Below, piece after piece: positions 19,340 through 58,932 of a DNA stretch of 58,932 bases. The notes beneath the pieces are model-generated. The model ran no database searches and was not told the origin of the DNA. It saw only the letters and a list, made by a program, of their open reading frames with translations. This DNA is from a bacterium BMS3Bbin10 (lineage in GTDB: Bacteria > Pseudomonadota > Alphaproteobacteria > Rhizobiales > Methyloligellaceae). The stretch spans positions 1 through 58,932 of the forward strand of contig BDTT01000137.1 in assembly GCA_002897995.1 (NCBI GenBank), given 5' to 3'. The position numbers were made by a program, and so were the translations under genes. Each line of letters begins with the position of its first letter. The stretch's first letter is position 1.

Positions 19340-20815
19340 ATGCTGTTTCCCACCCTCGAATTCGCGATCTTCTTTCTTGCCGTGTTCGGCATCAGCTGGG
19401 AGCTGCGCCGCCGCCCGGAATCGCGAAAAGTGTTTCTGCTCGGCGCGTCCTATTTGTTCTATGGCTGGTGGGACTGGCGCTTTACCGCACTGCTGGCCGG
19501 CTCGTCGCTGATCAACTATGCGGGCGGGCGTCTCATCGGGCTCGCCAAAACCGAGCGCGAGCGCAAGGCGCTGCTGGGCATCACGGTGGCGCTCAACCTC
19601 GTCATACTGGGATTTTTCAAATATTACGGGTTCTTTCTGGATTCGCTCGCCGATCTGCTGGTTTCCGCAGGGCTCGAACGCGATCTGCCGTTCTTAGAGA
19701 TTATTCTGCCCGTCGGCATTTCCTTCTTCACCTTCCAGGGCATCTCCTATGTCACGGATGTTTACCGCCGCCAGATCGAGCCGGTGGATTCCCCGCTCGA
19801 CGTGTTCCTGTATATCTCGTTTTTCCCGCAGCTGGTGGCCGGTCCCATCGTCCGCGCCGCCGATTTCCTCCCCCAGCTCAGGGCGCAGCCCCGGCTCAGC
19901 CGCTCGCTGGTTTCTCTTGGCATCCTGCTCATTGTGATGGGGCTGTTCAAGAAGATGGTGATCGCCGATTATCTGGCCACGGAACTTGTCGATGAAGTGT
20001 TCTTCGATCCGTCCATCTATGCGGGTCCCGATCTGGCGCTTGCGGTTTACGCCTATGCGATCCAGATCTATTGCGATTTTTCCGGCTACAGCGACATCGC
20101 CATCGGCGTGGCGGCGCTGCTCGGCTACCGCTTCAGGTGGAACTTCAACCAGCCCTACCGGGCCGCCTCTTTAAGGGAATTCTGGAAGCGCTGGAATATT
20201 TCGCTCTCCGAATGGCTGCGCGACTATCTCTACAAACCCCTCGGCGGCGCGCGCGGGGGCACATTTGCGACCTACCGGAACCTGTTCCTCACCATGGTTC
20301 TGGGCGGCATCTGGCACGGGGCGGCCTGGACCTTTGTGGTCTGGGGGCTCATTCACGGAACGGCCCTGGCGGTGGAGCGGCTCGTGGCGAGCCTCAAGAC
20401 CGTAACCGCGCCGGTAATGGCGGTCGCAGGCTTTGGGCCGGGCATGATGGCCCCGGCCGGTCCGCCGCGAGAGGGCGGCAGGATGAGTCGCGCGCTGGGC
20501 GTATTCGTGACCTTCAATATCGTGTGTCTGGCATGGATTTTCTTCCGCGCTGAAAACTTTCAGGTCGCCCTCGCCTATCTGCAGGGGCTCACCGACTGGT
20601 CGGGCCCGGGCCGGTTCACCACGCCGTTCCTGGTCTTCATGGTCGCGGGCTCGCTCGGCGCTCACTTCCTGCCGGGCGATCTGGTGACGCGCGCGGCAAA
20701 GGCGCTGGAGCCGGTCGGGCCGATCGGCCTCGGCTTCCTTCTGGGGTTCGGCATTCTGCTCATTGAAACCGTGGGGCCGGACGGCGTGGCGCCGTTCATC
20801 TATTTCCAGTTCTAG
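19340..20815 (+). CDS. MBOAT family membrane O-acyltransferase (AlgI/PatA-like)
   Basis: 491 residues with about ten membrane segments. Signature stretches are FFLFWG-like LFYGWWDWRFTALL near the start, ILPVGISFFTFQGISYVTDVYR, and GGIWHGAAWTFVVWGLIHG at about 320-340, where the second His is the conserved MBOAT residue. Proteins of this type pass acetyl groups to periplasmic partners that modify alginate or peptidoglycan. The two SGNH proteins immediately upstream are the expected partners. The stop codon TAG is provided by the CTAG that begins the downstream palindromic repeat. Confidence 0.93.
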   Translation: MLFPTLEFAIFFLAVFGISWELRRRPESRKVFLLGASYLFYGWWDWRFTALLAGSSLINYAGGRLIGLAKTERERKALLGITVALNLVILGFFKYYGFFLDSLADLLVSAGLERDLPFLEIILPVGISFFTFQGISYVTDVYRRQIEPVDSPLDVFLYISFFPQLVAGPIVRAADFLPQLRAQPRLSRSLVSLGILLIVMGLFKKMVIADYLATELVDEVFFDPSIYAGPDLALAVYAYAIQIYCDFSGYSDIAIGVAALLGYRFRWNFNQPYRAASLREFWKRWNISLSEWLRDYLYKPLGGARGGTFATYRNLFLTMVLGGIWHGAAWTFVVWGLIHGTALAVERLVASLKTVTAPVMAVAGFGPGMMAPAGPPREGGRMSRALGVFVTFNIVCLAWIFFRAENFQVALAYLQGLTDWSGPGRFTTPFLVFMVAGSLGAHFLPGDLVTRAAKALEPVGPIGLGFLLGFGILLIETVGPDGVAPFIYFQF

Positions 20816-20917
20816 TGCGTATCACCGATAAGTGGAAACCGGTTATCGGAAAAACGATACGCATAAACAAAAGGTTAGATCGCGGTTTTGATTCCATCAA
20901 AACATGAAGCGATCTAG
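20812..20917. repeat. CTAG-bounded two-hairpin repeat, copy A
   Basis: It runs from CTAG (20812-20815) to CTAG (20914-20917). Hairpin 1 has outer arms GCGTATC (20817-20823) / GATACGC (20856-20862) with inner CCGATAA / TTATCGG. Hairpin 2 has outer arms AGATCGC (20877-20883) / GCGATCT (20909-20915) and inner GTTTTGAT / ATCAAAAC around TCC. The first CTAG contains the stop codon of the MBOAT gene. Other copies are at 43459, 44557 and 58667. Confidence 0.88.
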
Positions 20918-42340: not shown

Positions 42341-43462
42341 ATGAGCGACGCATCCACAACAAGAAAATACCCGCCGGGGACCCATCCCGACATGCCGCCG
42401 CCGCTGCTGGAATCGGGGGCAATCTACTGGGTCAGGAAAAACCTGCTGTCGAGCTGGACCAATGTCGGACTGACTCTTGCCGGTCTGTGGGCCCTGTGGC
42501 TGATCATCCCGCCATTTTACGAATGGGCGTATGCCGACGCGGTGTTCAACGCGGCTGACCGTTCCGAGTGTCAGTCCCTGGGCGATGGCGCGTGCTGGGC
42601 CTTCATCCAGGAGCGTTTCAAGATATTCATTTTCGGGTTCTATCCCGAAGCCGAGCGCTGGCGCACGATCCTGACATTCGCCCTTCTGTTTGTGGCGATC
42701 GGCCCGCTGCTGTTCGACAATTTTCCCTATCGCGGCAAGGCCATGCTGTTCTCGCTGGCCTATCCGTTCGTCGCCGCATGGCTTCTGCTTGGCGGTTTCG
42801 GGCTCACCCCCGTTGGAACCGACGAGTTCGGCGGGATGCTTCTGAATCTCATCGTCGGTATTACCGGTATCACTTTCTCACTCCCCATCGGGATTGTGCT
42901 CGCGCTGGGGCGCGCCTCCAATCTGCCGGCCGTGCGGATAATCTGCGTGACCTTCATTGAGTTCATCCGCGGCGTTCCGCTCATCACATTGCTGTTTCTC
43001 GCATCGACCATGCTGAGTTACTTCCTGCCTCCCGGCACCAGTTTCGATTTGCTGATGCGGGTGCTGATCATGGTGACGCTGTTTGCATCGGGCTATCTGG
43101 CCGAGGTGGTTCGCGGCGGCCTTCAGGCCATTCCGCGCGGGCAATATGAAGCCGCCGATTCCATGGGGCTGAAATACTGGCAGTCCATGCGGCTTATCGT
43201 GCTGCCGCAGGCGTTGAAGATTTCCATTCCGGGCATCGTCAATACCTTTATCGGATTGTTCAAGGATACCACGCTGGTCATCATCATCGGCCTGTTCGAT
43301 ATGCTGGGCATGGGCCGCTCGTCGCTGGCCGACGCCAAATGGGCGGGTCTGTCGAGCGAGGTGTATATCTCGATCGCGCTCTTCTTCTTCCTGTTCTGCT
43401 TCGCCATGTCGCGCTATTCGCTCTATCTGGAAAGCAAGCTGGAGACCGGCCACCGGATCTAG
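42341..43462 (+). CDS. aapM: Aap amino-acid ABC transporter permease M
   Basis: 373 residues. The N-terminus is cytoplasmic, then a membrane helix (VGLTLAGLWALWLIIPPF), a periplasmic loop with two Cys (RSECQSLGDGACWAF), and a HisM-type core. The EAA loop reads RGQYEAADSMGLKYWQSMRLIVLPQALKISIPG. The gene begins 16 bases after aapQ. No aapP-like ATPase follows, although most relatives place it next; repeat copy B and a ribosomal-protein gene follow instead. The TAG stop is the one within the CTAG of that repeat. Confidence 0.95.
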   Translation: MSDASTTRKYPPGTHPDMPPPLLESGAIYWVRKNLLSSWTNVGLTLAGLWALWLIIPPFYEWAYADAVFNAADRSECQSLGDGACWAFIQERFKIFIFGFYPEAERWRTILTFALLFVAIGPLLFDNFPYRGKAMLFSLAYPFVAAWLLLGGFGLTPVGTDEFGGMLLNLIVGITGITFSLPIGIVLALGRASNLPAVRIICVTFIEFIRGVPLITLLFLASTMLSYFLPPGTSFDLLMRVLIMVTLFASGYLAEVVRGGLQAIPRGQYEAADSMGLKYWQSMRLIVLPQALKISIPGIVNTFIGLFKDTTLVIIIGLFDMLGMGRSSLADAKWAGLSSEVYISIALFFFLFCFAMSRYSLYLESKLETGHRI

Positions 43463-43585
43463 GGCGTATCACCGATAAGCATGTCCCCGCGAAGGCGGGG
43501 ATGGGAACCGGTTATCGGAAAAACGATACGCATAAACAAAGCCAAGATCGCGGTTTTGATTCCATCAAAACATGAAGCGATCCAG
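43459..43585. repeat. CTAG-bounded two-hairpin repeat, copy B with nested hairpin
   Basis: CTAG at 43459-43462 contains the aapM stop. Outer arms of hairpin 1 are GCGTATC (43464-43470) and GATACGC (43525-43531). Its loop carries an extra hairpin (TCCCCGC / GCGGGGA, about 43483-43501) absent from copy A. Hairpin 2 (43546-43582) has GTTTTGAT / ATCAAAAC arms as in copy A. The right boundary is CCAG instead of CTAG. Confidence 0.87.
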
Positions 43586-43894: not shown

Positions 43895-44560
43895 ATGCTC
43901 ATGCGCATGACTGGCGCAAAATCACGAACTTTTCGCCGCGCGGCCCTTGGTCTGCTTTTCAGTGCCGCGCTGGGCCTGCCGGCCGCGCAGGCGGAGCCAG
44001 GCGGCGATGCCGGACCCCGCGCCGCCGCGCCGGAGAGGTTCTCTTTGCCAAGCGACCAGGCCGGCACGGCCGATGAGCGGCGCGAACTGCTCGGTGAACT
44101 CTATGATCGCCTCGGCAAGGCGGAAAACCGGGACAGCGCCAAACTCATTGCGTCGGCCATCGAGAGATTGTGGCTGCGCTCGGGAAGCGACACCGTCGAT
44201 TTGCTGATGTCCCGGGCGGCTATTCTGATACAGGGCGATAAGTCTGAAACCGCCCTTCAAGTCCTGAATTCGGTTATCGAACTCGCACCGGGATATTCCG
44301 AAGGGTGGGCGCGCCGCGCGGCGCTCTATTTCAACCAGAAGGATTTCCGCAAGTCGCTTGACGATCTGCGTCATGCGCTGGCGCTTGATCCCTCCCACTA
44401 CAAGGCCATTCAGGGCCTGGGGCTTCTTATGCAGAAGCTGGGTGACAAGGAGGCCGCGCTACAGGCTGTCAGAAAGGCCCTGAAGGTGTATCCCCATCTT
44501 GAGGAGGCGCGGCAGGCGGAAGAAGAGCTGACCCGCGAAGTCGAAGGTCAGAGTATCTAG
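43895..44560 (+). CDS. Exported TPR-repeat protein
   Basis: 221 residues. A basic N-terminus and hydrophobic segment (RRAALGLLFSAALGLPAAQA) form a signal peptide. Two or three TPR repeats follow, with ETALQVLNSVIELAPGYSEGWARRAALYF, KDFRKSLDDLRHALALDPSHYKAIQGLGLLM and DKEAALQAVRKALKVYPHL. Such repeats mediate protein contacts in the periplasm. No partner is obvious. The gene is convergent with pyk, and repeat copy C fills the space between them, giving both stop codons. Confidence 0.8.
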   Translation: MLMRMTGAKSRTFRRAALGLLFSAALGLPAAQAEPGGDAGPRAAAPERFSLPSDQAGTADERRELLGELYDRLGKAENRDSAKLIASAIERLWLRSGSDTVDLLMSRAAILIQGDKSETALQVLNSVIELAPGYSEGWARRAALYFNQKDFRKSLDDLRHALALDPSHYKAIQGLGLLMQKLGDKEAALQAVRKALKVYPHLEEARQAEEELTREVEGQSI

Positions 44561-44661
44561 ATCGCTTCATGTTCTGATGGATTCAGAACCGCGATCCCGG
44601 TTTTGTCTATGCGCATCATTTTTCCGATAACCGGCTCCCGTTTATCGATGACACGCTCTAG
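44557..44661. repeat. CTAG-bounded two-hairpin repeat, copy C (inverted)
   Basis: It runs from CTAG (44557-44560) to CTAG (44658-44661), in the opposite direction to copies A and B. Hairpin 2 elements (AGATCGC, TTCTGAT, CGCGATC) and hairpin 1 elements (CCGATAA, TTTATCG) are recognisable but more degenerate. Its two CTAG ends contain the TAG stop codons of the TPR gene (forward) and pyk (reverse). The repeat spans the whole gap between the two convergent genes. Confidence 0.85.
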
Positions 44662-46094
44662 ATGCTCCCTGCTTCATTTTCACCGACGAACGCCACGCGC
44701 AGCAGGTTGGTCGCGCCAGGCGTGCCGAGCGGCACGCCCGCGGAAACGATGACCCTTTGCCCCGGCCTTGCGAAGCCCTCGCGGAAGGCGATCCGGCAGG
44801 CCTTTTCAACCATTTCGTCCAGGTCTTCCGCGTCGCTTGTGAGGACACAATGCAGGCCCCAGACCATGGCGAGACGCCGCGCCGTCGCGGCAATTGGCGT
44901 AAGCGCGATCACCGGCTGGCGCGGGCGCTCGCGCGCGGCCCTCAGTCCGGTTGAACCGGACCCCGTGTAGCAGACTATGGCCGCGAGATTGAGCGTTTCC
45001 GACACCGTGCGGGCCGCCGCCGAGATCGCATCGGCGGCCGTCGCCTCGGGTTCGATTTCCTGGGCGTGAATAAGCCGCTCATAGCCCGCGTCGCGTTCCA
45101 CCTCGATCGCGATCTTGTCCATGGTGACGACGGCCTCGACCGGGAACTGGCCGGCGGCGCTTTCGGCCGACAGCATGATCGCGTCCGCGCCGTCGAAAAC
45201 GGCGGTCGCGACGTCGGAGACTTCCGCGCGCGTGGGAACGGGCGCGGTAATCATGGACTCCAGCATCTGGGTTGCGATGACCACCGGCTTGCCGGTGCGT
45301 CTCGCGGCGAGCGTGATGCGCTTCTGGAGGCCGGGCACCTGTTCGAGCGGCATCTCCACGCCAAGGTCTCCGCGCGCGACCATGAGACCGTCGGACAGCT
45401 CAAGAATGGAATCCAGATGGTCGATTGCCGAAGGCTTCTCGATCTTGGTCATGATCGCCACGCGCCCGCGGGTCAGTTTCCGGGCCTCGGCCACATCGTC
45501 GGAGCGCTGGACGAAGGACAGGCCGATCCAGTCGGCGCCGAGATTGACGGCCTGTTCCAGATCCTTGCGGTCCTTGTCGGTCATGGCGCCGAAGGGCAGC
45601 ACCGTGTCGGGAAGGGAGATACCTTTCCGGCTGGCCAGCGCGCCGCCGGTGACGACTTGCGCGCTGATGGAATCGGGCGAAGTTTCGCGCACGACCAGAT
45701 GCAGCTTGCCATCGTCCAGAATGAGCTTGTGCCCCGGCTCCACCGCCCGGAATATTTCCGGATGCGGCAGGTGGACGCGTTGCGCCGTACCCAGTTCCTC
45801 ATTGCGGTCAAAACGGAATATCTCGCCCTCGACAAGCTCCGCCGCGCCGTCCGCGAATTCGCCGACCCGCAATTTGGGGCCCTGCAGATCGACCAGAATG
45901 CCAATGGGCCGGCCGGCGTCGGCCTCGATCTTGCGGATGACGCGGTGAAGCTCCGTCAGTCCCTCCGCCGAGGCGTGGCTCATATTGATGCGAAAAACAT
46001 CGGCGCCTGCTTCGAACAGGCACCGGATTGTATCTGGATCGGAAGAGGAGGGACCAAGTGTGGCGACGATCTTGACCCGGCGGTTTCTTCTCAT
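44658..46094 (-). CDS. pyk: Pyruvate kinase
   Basis: 478 residues. It converts phosphoenolpyruvate and ADP to pyruvate and ATP. The opening KIVATLGPSSSDPDTIR, FRINMSHAS, the active-site stretch IMTKIEKPSAI, ARGDLGVEMPLEQVP and the effector-side ATQMLESM are all present. C-terminal domain complete, ending VGENEAGSI. It is the last gene of a reverse-strand operon after DUF1036, with a four-base overlap. The stop codon lies inside repeat copy C. Confidence 0.97.
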   Translation of the reverse strand: MRRNRRVKIVATLGPSSSDPDTIRCLFEAGADVFRINMSHASAEGLTELHRVIRKIEADAGRPIGILVDLQGPKLRVGEFADGAAELVEGEIFRFDRNEELGTAQRVHLPHPEIFRAVEPGHKLILDDGKLHLVVRETSPDSISAQVVTGGALASRKGISLPDTVLPFGAMTDKDRKDLEQAVNLGADWIGLSFVQRSDDVAEARKLTRGRVAIMTKIEKPSAIDHLDSILELSDGLMVARGDLGVEMPLEQVPGLQKRITLAARRTGKPVVIATQMLESMITAPVPTRAEVSDVATAVFDGADAIMLSAESAAGQFPVEAVVTMDKIAIEVERDAGYERLIHAQEIEPEATAADAISAAARTVSETLNLAAIVCYTGSGSTGLRAARERPRQPVIALTPIAATARRLAMVWGLHCVLTSDAEDLDEMVEKACRIAFREGFARPGQRVIVSAGVPLGTPGATNLLRVAFVGENEAGSI

Positions 46095-58171: not shown

Positions 58172-58670
58172 CAGGCCCATTGCGGGGAGCAAGCCCGAAT
58201 ACCCCATCCCCTGGATTGCGGCCTATTTTCTGACCGGGCTCATCGTGATCGGCGGGTCGTTCGTCATGGTCTGGTATCTGAACCGGTTTTCGTCCGACTA
58301 TGACTATGCCGATCCGGACATGGGCTTTCTGGAGCGGATCGTCCTGTCGCCGACGCCGCGCCGGGCGGACTTCAGCGCGCTCAATGGCGGCGATTGGCGG
58401 GTGCTCTGTCTCGTGGGGTGGAGGGGCGATCCGGGCGAGGCGCTGAAAGCGGCGGGAATTGGCGATGCTCCGGCCAGTGCACTCCTTGAGGAGATCGAGC
58501 GCACCGGGAGCGGCGTCGCGCAAAGCGAGTTCCTCTTCGCCTACACCGACAGATCCGGCACGCCAAAGGCGCTGCGGCACCCGCACGGATTCGCATTCGC
58601 GCAAAAAGGCGACGCCGCCTGCATCTCCCGCAACCAGCCGGTTCTGCGGCTTCCGGCGGGCAGCGACTAG
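58164..58670 (+). CDS. Hypothetical single-pass membrane protein
   Basis: 168 residues. A short polar N-terminus is followed by a membrane segment (about 17-38, PWIAAYFLTGLIVIGGSFVMVWYL). A soluble part follows with RADFSALNGGDWRVLCLVGWRGDP and SEFLFAYTDRSGTPKAL. No family is recognised. The start overlaps the doc stop by eight bases, so the gene could be coupled to the toxin module or have been captured by it. The TAG stop lies in the CTAG that begins repeat copy D. Confidence 0.68.
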   Translation: MADRPIAGSKPEYPIPWIAAYFLTGLIVIGGSFVMVWYLNRFSSDYDYADPDMGFLERIVLSPTPRRADFSALNGGDWRVLCLVGWRGDPGEALKAAGIGDAPASALLEEIERTGSGVAQSEFLFAYTDRSGTPKALRHPHGFAFAQKGDAACISRNQPVLRLPAGSD

Positions 58671-58709
58671 ATCGCTTCATGTTCTGATGGAATCAAAACC
58701 GCGATCTAG
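58667..58709. repeat. CTAG-bounded repeat, half-copy D
   Basis: Hairpin 2 only, from CTAG (58667-58670) to CTAG (58706-58709), oriented as copy C. Arms GATCGC / GCGATC and TTCTGAT / ATCAAAAC are present. The first CTAG contains the stop codon of the preceding gene. The sequence that should continue into hairpin 1 is replaced by the IS630-like element. Confidence 0.82.
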
Positions 58710-58932
58710 AGCAGGTTTGAGCATCCCCGATTCAAATTGAGGATTCCCTTTTCCGTCTTGCCATGATTCCCTCCTGAAACTGATTTGCGGGGAGGTTTTC
58801 ATGTCACGAGCATACAGTTGTGATCTTCGGCACCGGGTACTTGATGCGATCGACGGTGGGCTATCGACGCACAAAGCGGCAAAGCGCTTCGGTATTGGTG
58901 TTGCGACAGCGGTACGTTGGCATCGTGTCTGG
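58710..58932 (+). mobile_element. Left end of an IS630-family insertion sequence (partial)
   Basis: A non-coding stretch of about 90 bases precedes a transposase gene that runs off the window. The family inserts at TA dinucleotides; the boundary TA at 58707-58708 in the preceding CTAG fits. The exact terminal repeat cannot be defined because the other end is outside the window. Confidence 0.6.
58801..58932 (+). CDS. IS630-family transposase, N-terminal part
   Basis: 44 residues before the window edge. AYSCDLRHRVLDAIDGG and LSTHKAAKRFGIGVATAVRWHR form the N-terminal helix-turn-helix of IS630/Tc1-type transposases. A GGGGAGG ribosome-binding site precedes the ATG. The catalytic DDE domain is not within the window, so the element could be intact or broken. 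Confidence 0.83.
   Translation, partial: MSRAYSCDLRHRVLDAIDGGLSTHKAAKRFGIGVATAVRWHRVW

Follow-up and report, generated by a model that had tools for sequence, protein, structure and literature searches.

Among the small palindromic repeats of the alphaproteobacteria, Bru-RS1 and Bru-RS2 of Brucella were reportedly first described by Halling and Bricker in 1994, and the Rhizobium intergenic mosaic elements (RIME), which we take to share size and two-palindrome layout with the element described here, have to our knowledge no link to stop codons. Bru-RS1 and Bru-RS2 are palindromic repeats of 103 to 106 bp, like this element in size (PMC2266754, PMC2267715, PMC10800456), and have been proposed as insertion hot spots for an insertion sequence that duplicates TA (PMC2266754); the accessible parts of the three accounts draw no link to stop codons. 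RIME are likewise intergenic repeats, in rhizobia (Osteras 1995, cited in PMC2573895). The RUP of Streptococcus pneumoniae and the Correia elements of Neisseria are likewise small, non-autonomous and bounded by TA (PMC2229807); according to the available sections of the same source, RUP, a 107-bp unit with 108 copies, is proposed to be moved by an IS630-type transposase and has ends that resemble those of its insertion sequence, whereas for the element described here no matching insertion sequence was found, its target is CTAG, and it uses stop codons. An IS630-associated transposon prefers the TA in 5'-CTAG-3' (Tenzen and Ohtsubo 1991, as cited in PMC2170065), and the element shares this preference, but IS630 is an autonomous insertion sequence and the element a gene-free unit of 106 bp. 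QMITE2 of Coxiella burnetii, a MITE that likewise touches a stop codon at the 3' end of a gene, is described in the accessible text with one in-frame insertion that lengthens the protein by 33 residues (PMC5896051), whereas the element leaves the protein unchanged where tested. The element thus resembles the alphaproteobacterial Bru-RS/RIME repeats and belongs to a kind already known; its stop-codon rule is new as far as our searches show, no description having been found in the literature searched, with most subscription papers beyond its reach.

The element was recognized in the window, that is, the whole stretch of 58,932 nucleotides analysed, on contig C137 of a 3.18-Mb genome in 137 contigs (the source genome); the best named matches of the MBOAT protein of the window are in Hyphomicrobiales, including Parvibaculum. 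As the preliminary description had stated, four copies are present, and in all four a terminal CTAG lies in phase to serve as the stop of a neighbour, five genes ending in this way. The two hairpins ascribed to all of them are shared by copies 1 to 3; copy 4 consists of hairpin B alone. The features are as follows.

20812..20917, + strand: copy 1, complete element of 106 bp bounded by CTAG on either side, with hairpin A preceding hairpin B (sequence)
20816..20863, + strand: hairpin A of copy 1, outer stem TGCGTATC / GATACGCA, inner stem CCGATAA / TTATCGG (sequence, RNA fold)
20876..20916, + strand: hairpin B of copy 1, outer stem TAGATCGC / GCGATCTA, inner stem GTTTTGAT / ATCAAAAC (sequence, RNA fold)
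20813..20815, + strand: TAG stop of the MBOAT gene (19340 to 20815), interpreted as the TA of the target completed by the first G of the element (sequence; relative L061 has a CTAG stop without the element)
43459..43585, + strand: copy 2, 127 bp, left CTAG being the stop of the ABC permease gene (42341 to 43462), right end CCAG (sequence, gene calls)
44557..44661, - strand: copy 3, 105 bp, A end being the stop of the pyruvate kinase gene (44658 to 46094, minus strand) and B end that of the TPR gene (43895 to 44560) (sequence, gene calls, Pfam)
58667..58709, - strand: copy 4, limited to hairpin B, with a CTAG on each side, the left one being the stop of an ORF ending at 58670 (sequence)
58709..58932, + strand: IS630-family insertion sequence, left end GAGCAGGTTTGAGC after TA, N terminus of the transposase with HTH_Tnp_IS630 at E = 1e-6 (sequence, Pfam)

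Four of the five stop-sharing genes carry Pfam domains (MBOAT, ABC permease, TPR and pyruvate kinase); the fifth, the ORF of 168 to 174 amino acids ending at 58670, has a coding-like score and no Pfam match. Copy 4 adjoins on its right side the IS630-family insertion sequence, which is cut by the contig end and has perhaps inserted into a TA at the inner foot of hairpin B, as the junction, read from one side, would suggest. Copy 1 matches positions 347 to 435 of the Rfam model of the Brucella RNA BASRCI408 (E = 7.6e-11, 44 bits against a gathering score of 398). Judged from this model and the published descriptions, the match appears in line with a repeat of the Bru-RS kind; the stems of the element differ from those of the model.

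Anatomy and copy number

Searches of the source genome listed 42 places for the 106-base query, 100 for a hairpin B pattern and 73 for a 13-base junction word, and a profile run (nhmmer) over the 440 kb surrounding those places, on which all counts rest, gave 121 matches. We counted as full copies the 99 that span the whole element; the 22 partial ones were dropped before the main count. The 99 full copies and the two hairpins in the fold of copy 1 (-38.9 kcal/mol for the whole element on the + strand) describe a dispersed unit of roughly 100 bp with two palindromes. The unit measures about 106 bp, or 127 to 128 bp if loop A encloses a nested hairpin of 22 bp; this hairpin unit (TCCCCGCGAAGGCGGGGA) sits in that loop in the long copies aligned, at 43480 to 43501 in copy 2. 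Lengths of the full copies range from 101 to 128 bp with clusters at 105 to 106 and 127 to 128 bp, and the long form accounts for 40 of the 99, so that two length classes coexist.

The left ends of the full copies read CTAG in 67 cases, TTAG in 13 and otherwise in 19; the right ends read CTAG in 61, CCAG in 18, CTAA in 9 and otherwise in 11. The base after the CCAG right ends is a G (CCAGG) in 12 of 18, compared with 25 of 61 for the CTAG right ends; a mismatch-repair bias toward CCAGG is one idea to be considered for these ends.

Exact coincidence with stop codons

Genes were called with a predictor written for this analysis, the retrained version of which was used for the main counts. In 56 of the 99 full copies, a predicted gene has its stop codon exactly at one or both ends of the element: A ends account for 47 such stops and B ends for 15, with 6 copies having a stop at each end. 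The first gene call had given 55 copies (46 A, 15 B). On the A side, 47 of 73 converging genes stop at distance 0, with every other single distance represented by at most 2 genes; on the B side, distance 0 is found for 15 of 56 converging genes, the next most frequent distance for 3. The median length of the genes ended exactly at the element is 822 nt. Recording the distance of each copy to the nearest stop, as the preliminary description had proposed, hence yields a main peak at 0 among the 99 full copies, and its contention that the link exceeds chance is borne out. No exact stop is found at either end of 43 of the 99 full copies, and 13 of the 99 have no gene call on one side.

Scarcity of CTAG within genes

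As a control we used 400 kb of chosen stretches from long contigs, outside the 440 kb around the copies, in which there are 7 weak partial matches to the element and zero full copies. The supposed rarity of CTAG is confirmed there, with 116 occurrences against about 1420 expected from base composition and 244 from a Markov estimate. Among these 116 sites, 12 lie inside genes, 30 at stops and 74 between genes, although 81% of the DNA is coding, so that a preference for CTAG leads to stop codons and intergenic DNA. Of 320 control stops, 30 are CTAG. TAG itself is a frequent stop in the source genome (115 of the 320), which gives a wider pool of TA-containing stops.

Of the 73 non-coding CTAGs that are isolated, the next CTAG being more than 200 bases away, 26 are stops; thus, CTAG choice alone predicts that about one third of the copies fall at stops. 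The observed use of stops exceeds this expectation (56 of 99 against 26 of 73 isolated sites, p = 0.009; against 30 of 104 for all non-coding sites, p = 7e-5). Target choice together with the loss of gene-breaking insertions explains most of the stop link, not all of it. The suggestion that the element inserts preferentially at CTAG is supported by its ends (CTAG at 67 of 99 on the left and 61 of 99 on the right) and by the element-free relatives, which show the site; the flanks of the copies, examined for an extended target beyond CTAG, revealed no strong bias. The companion suggestion, which limits survival of the element to places where it restores a stop, goes too far in view of the 43 copies with no exact stop and of the share of isolated non-coding CTAGs that are stops anyway. 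A separate concentration of the word, seven CTAG within about 60 bases, is formed by the tandem repeat GGCCTAGAATTGCCTAGT (L225, 11336 to 11395).

A model of insertion into existing stops

We consider it highly probable that a CTAG-seeking, MITE-like element inserts into existing stop codons and rebuilds them. According to this model, a non-autonomous two-hairpin element of about 106 bp would insert at TA, preferably the TA of CTAG, and the TA would be duplicated to give N-TA-[G ... C]-TA-N. Since G is the first base of the element in both reading directions, a TAG or TAA stop that receives it would become an in-frame TAG, and the protein would stay unchanged. Owing to its preference for CTAG, the element would arrive mostly at stop codons or between genes, gene-internal insertions would presumably be removed by selection, and mobilization would occur in trans by an IS630-type (Tc1/mariner-like) transposase. 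This would be a simple rule by which some 100 copies of a repeat can be held in a gene-dense genome without damage, namely, to target a word that genes avoid and that is found at stops, and to bring a first base that completes the stop. It would account for the exact start of such repeats where genes end in these alphaproteobacteria, and it cautions that mobile DNA may shape TAG usage there as well as the hairpins of 3'-UTRs.

Candidate movers

No transposase with terminal repeats matching the element was found, and the abutting IS630-type and DDE-type elements share no long ends with it. Nor do the two ends of the element form long inverted repeats with one another, and the sequence common to some IS630 ends here and to element ends in order-level relatives is limited to GAGC. 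The IS630-family elements at 58709 to 58932, in L220 (1 to 1250) and in L221 (1 to 300) have their ends at the TA of CTAG-like words.

A transposase of the IS5/IS427 type might act as mover instead of one of the IS630 type, which we hold to be unlikely. In L220, a CTAG is preceded by the 3' end of a DDE-type transposase (DDE_Tnp_1_2, E = 4e-5, below its cut-off), which we take to be of the IS5 type; the flank with this end adjoins element copies at C42 and C45, and the IS630-family element of L220 lies directly behind it. A parallel is offered by IS711, which duplicates the TA of YTAR and is associated with Bru-RS, as the available portion of its description states (PMC2266754). However, the element targets mainly CTAG, and its TTAG or TTAA ends are few even though TTAA is the commoner word in the control DNA (256 against 116 occurrences); moreover, the adjoining insertion sequences may have arrived independently at the same TA. 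They show that the edges of the element are hit by TA-specific elements, not that these elements move it.

Related elements in other genomes

Matches to the element were obtained in 17 of the 61 genomes searched, the source genome included (16 of 60 relatives). Related copies from across the order share the core GTGGGAACCGG, their stems covarying in the folded loci, and hairpin A of the folded relatives pairs through changed stems (GCGTATC/GATACGC, GCATGATC/GATCATGC and GTGCTTC/GAAGCAC). In the relatives G006 and G007, 7 of 12 full copies (16 places examined) end on a frame scoring above 20, a cut-off of our own choice. In G021, of another genus, 15 of 35 distinct matches end exactly on a predicted stop (best 30 of 42 loci), and in G041, of another family, there are 10 exact stops among 31 matches and 10 among the 19 with an intact A end (best 30 of 40 loci, searched with the A half only); in both genomes, the stem sequences differ from those of the source genome. 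The stop-codon pattern is thus general in the genomes examined.

It is possible to hypothesize, as a tentative generalization that goes well beyond the insertion model, that an entire class of palindromic elements targeting CTAG could find a safe harbour in stop codons throughout a bacterial order. A target rule (TA in a word avoided by coding DNA) and a terminal G would guarantee the rewriting to TAG, and the pairing would be kept by selection on the element for harmless spread.

Orientation of the element

An exact stop is found at the A end only in 41 copies, at the B end only in 9 and at both in 6 (p = 6e-6), a bias of A over B that a symmetric insertion model does not predict; furthermore, in tandem gene pairs the A end is upstream 34 times against 15 (p = 0.009). 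The bias may be due to selection on transcripts, to an insertion bias or to the loss of B-end stops.

These figures bear on the alternative that the repeat is a functional 3'-UTR element (a terminator, an mRNA stabilizer or a processing site) kept beside stops by selection on the host genes, which we regard as improbable. Besides the A-end bias, the use of stops above the CTAG expectation and the pairing of hairpin A, kept while its stems change across the order, would agree with such a function, and the B-to-A reading places a T-rich stretch after hairpin B. However, this is the less common orientation, and no T run follows the element in the commoner, A-first one; the conservation of the hairpin fits recognition by a transposase as well; and a 3'-UTR function would not require exact overlap with the stop. 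In addition, G021 does not share the bias (9 A and 7 B among its exact stops, best 30 of 42 loci), and none of the 100 orthologous gene ends examined (19 genes, seven congeners, 150 to 441 bases each) carries the element.

Junctions and probable duplication of TA

Returning to insertion at TA, empty sites could be compared in G006, the proteins of which are among the most similar to those of the source genome in the orthologue matches listed. At C110, two convergent genes share in G006 a 4-base TTAG as overlapping stops; in the source genome, the same flanks enclose CTAG-element-CTAG, and each of the two genes has its own stop. The gene pair at C35 likewise shares a TTAG in G006, and at the coxC locus the G006 sequence stays in register past the stop. 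At C24, where the right end reads CTAA, the gene has a TAG stop and its orthologues in G006 and G007 have a TAA stop; here a TAA seems to have been turned into TAG, as expected if the TAA was split and rewritten.

The two ends of a copy are often unequal. Among 13 copies with TTAG at the left, 1 also has TTAG at the right, and among 9 with CTAA at the right, 1 also has CTAA at the left; the outer bases deviate from C or G 26 times and the element's own edge bases 9 times (p = 0.006). This mismatch of the ends, the variable outer bases and the case of C24 fit N-TA-[G...C]-TA-N. Duplication of TA on insertion would thus be supported but not proven, and insertion at TA, as for an IS630-type MITE, is indicated indirectly, by end patterns and empty sites. 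Duplication of the 4-base CTAG, also considered, is disfavoured by the same unequal ends.

The end patterns are also relevant to REP/BIME sequences, related to IS200/IS605, that is, hairpins moved by a Y1 (RAYT) transposase inserting after a tetranucleotide. REP sequences have two hairpins at their ends and a tetranucleotide at the foot. The end hairpins of the element with CTAG at their foot resemble this anatomy, GTAG being given for the REP foot in the part of the source at hand (PMC2817692), and the genome has one Y1_Tnp gene. Nevertheless, no copy of the element lies within the 2.8-kb locus around this gene, and the bases that vary at the two ends of the element agree better with insertion at TA, so that this origin is very improbable. 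A Y1/RAYT transposase was accordingly rejected as mover, the single gene found lying away from the element.

At three G006 loci, extra bases stand between the stop and the matching downstream sequence (ilvA 14, flgC 14, abcP 26); in ilvA and flgC they resemble a very small palindrome, flanked by TA on one side and TA or TG on the other, which may be a further insertion in G006. The downstream alignment beats all 200 shuffles at 4 of 18 G006 loci, and at most of the others the downstream sequence is too diverged for comparison. Of the 6 copies with a stop at both ends, C56 and the pyruvate kinase/TPR copy have their two stops apart in G006, another repeat lying between the separated stops in the latter case; C83 and C92 are outside the comparison.

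Stop codons in element-free relatives

From the 62 gene ends we picked 19 genes as likely conserved and, with one match per genome among the matches listed in the seven congeners, read the 100 element-free 3' ends introduced above. The same stop codon is used in 89 of the 100, with CTAG in 34 and TTAG in 21. In G006, 18 of 18 orthologous ends stop at the same codon, 11 of 18 with CTAG, compared with 30 CTAG among the 320 stops of the control DNA. Whether the stop was already CTAG in relatives lacking the repeat, a comparison proposed in the preliminary description, can be answered in the affirmative for 16 of the 19 genes, for which at least one element-free relative ends in CTAG. The same holds for L061, the best named match of the MBOAT gene, which has a CTAG stop and no element; its spacing from the stop to the next start is 19 bases, as behind the element in the window. 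It follows from the stops shared with element-free orthologues that these stops predate the element, which, on such comparisons of aligned gene ends, did not create them. To say that the element supplies the stop codons of its neighbours is therefore misleading, since the stops pre-exist; what stands of that statement is that the third base, G, is the element's.

That the element creates or replaces stops, inserting elsewhere so that genes later adopt its TAG, is hardly credible and appears already largely refuted: the stop does overlap the element end, and the TA model assigns the last base of TAG to the element, but the codon is the same in the element-free ends counted above, including all of those in G006, and predicted genes extend into an A end in one case and into a B end in none.

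Other small repeats were observed at stop codons. Tiny palindromes such as TAGGGTCAGAACCCTA occur directly after stops in G006 (L250, L258); they may be scars or minimal elements flanked by TA. Another repeat, unrelated to the element (core CCTATTCAA...GCACCTCATGCT) starts at or next to TAG stops (L228, 18463 to 18567; L249, from about 75; L248, from about 93), and in G006 it lies directly behind pyruvate kinase, at the stop where the source genome has the element.
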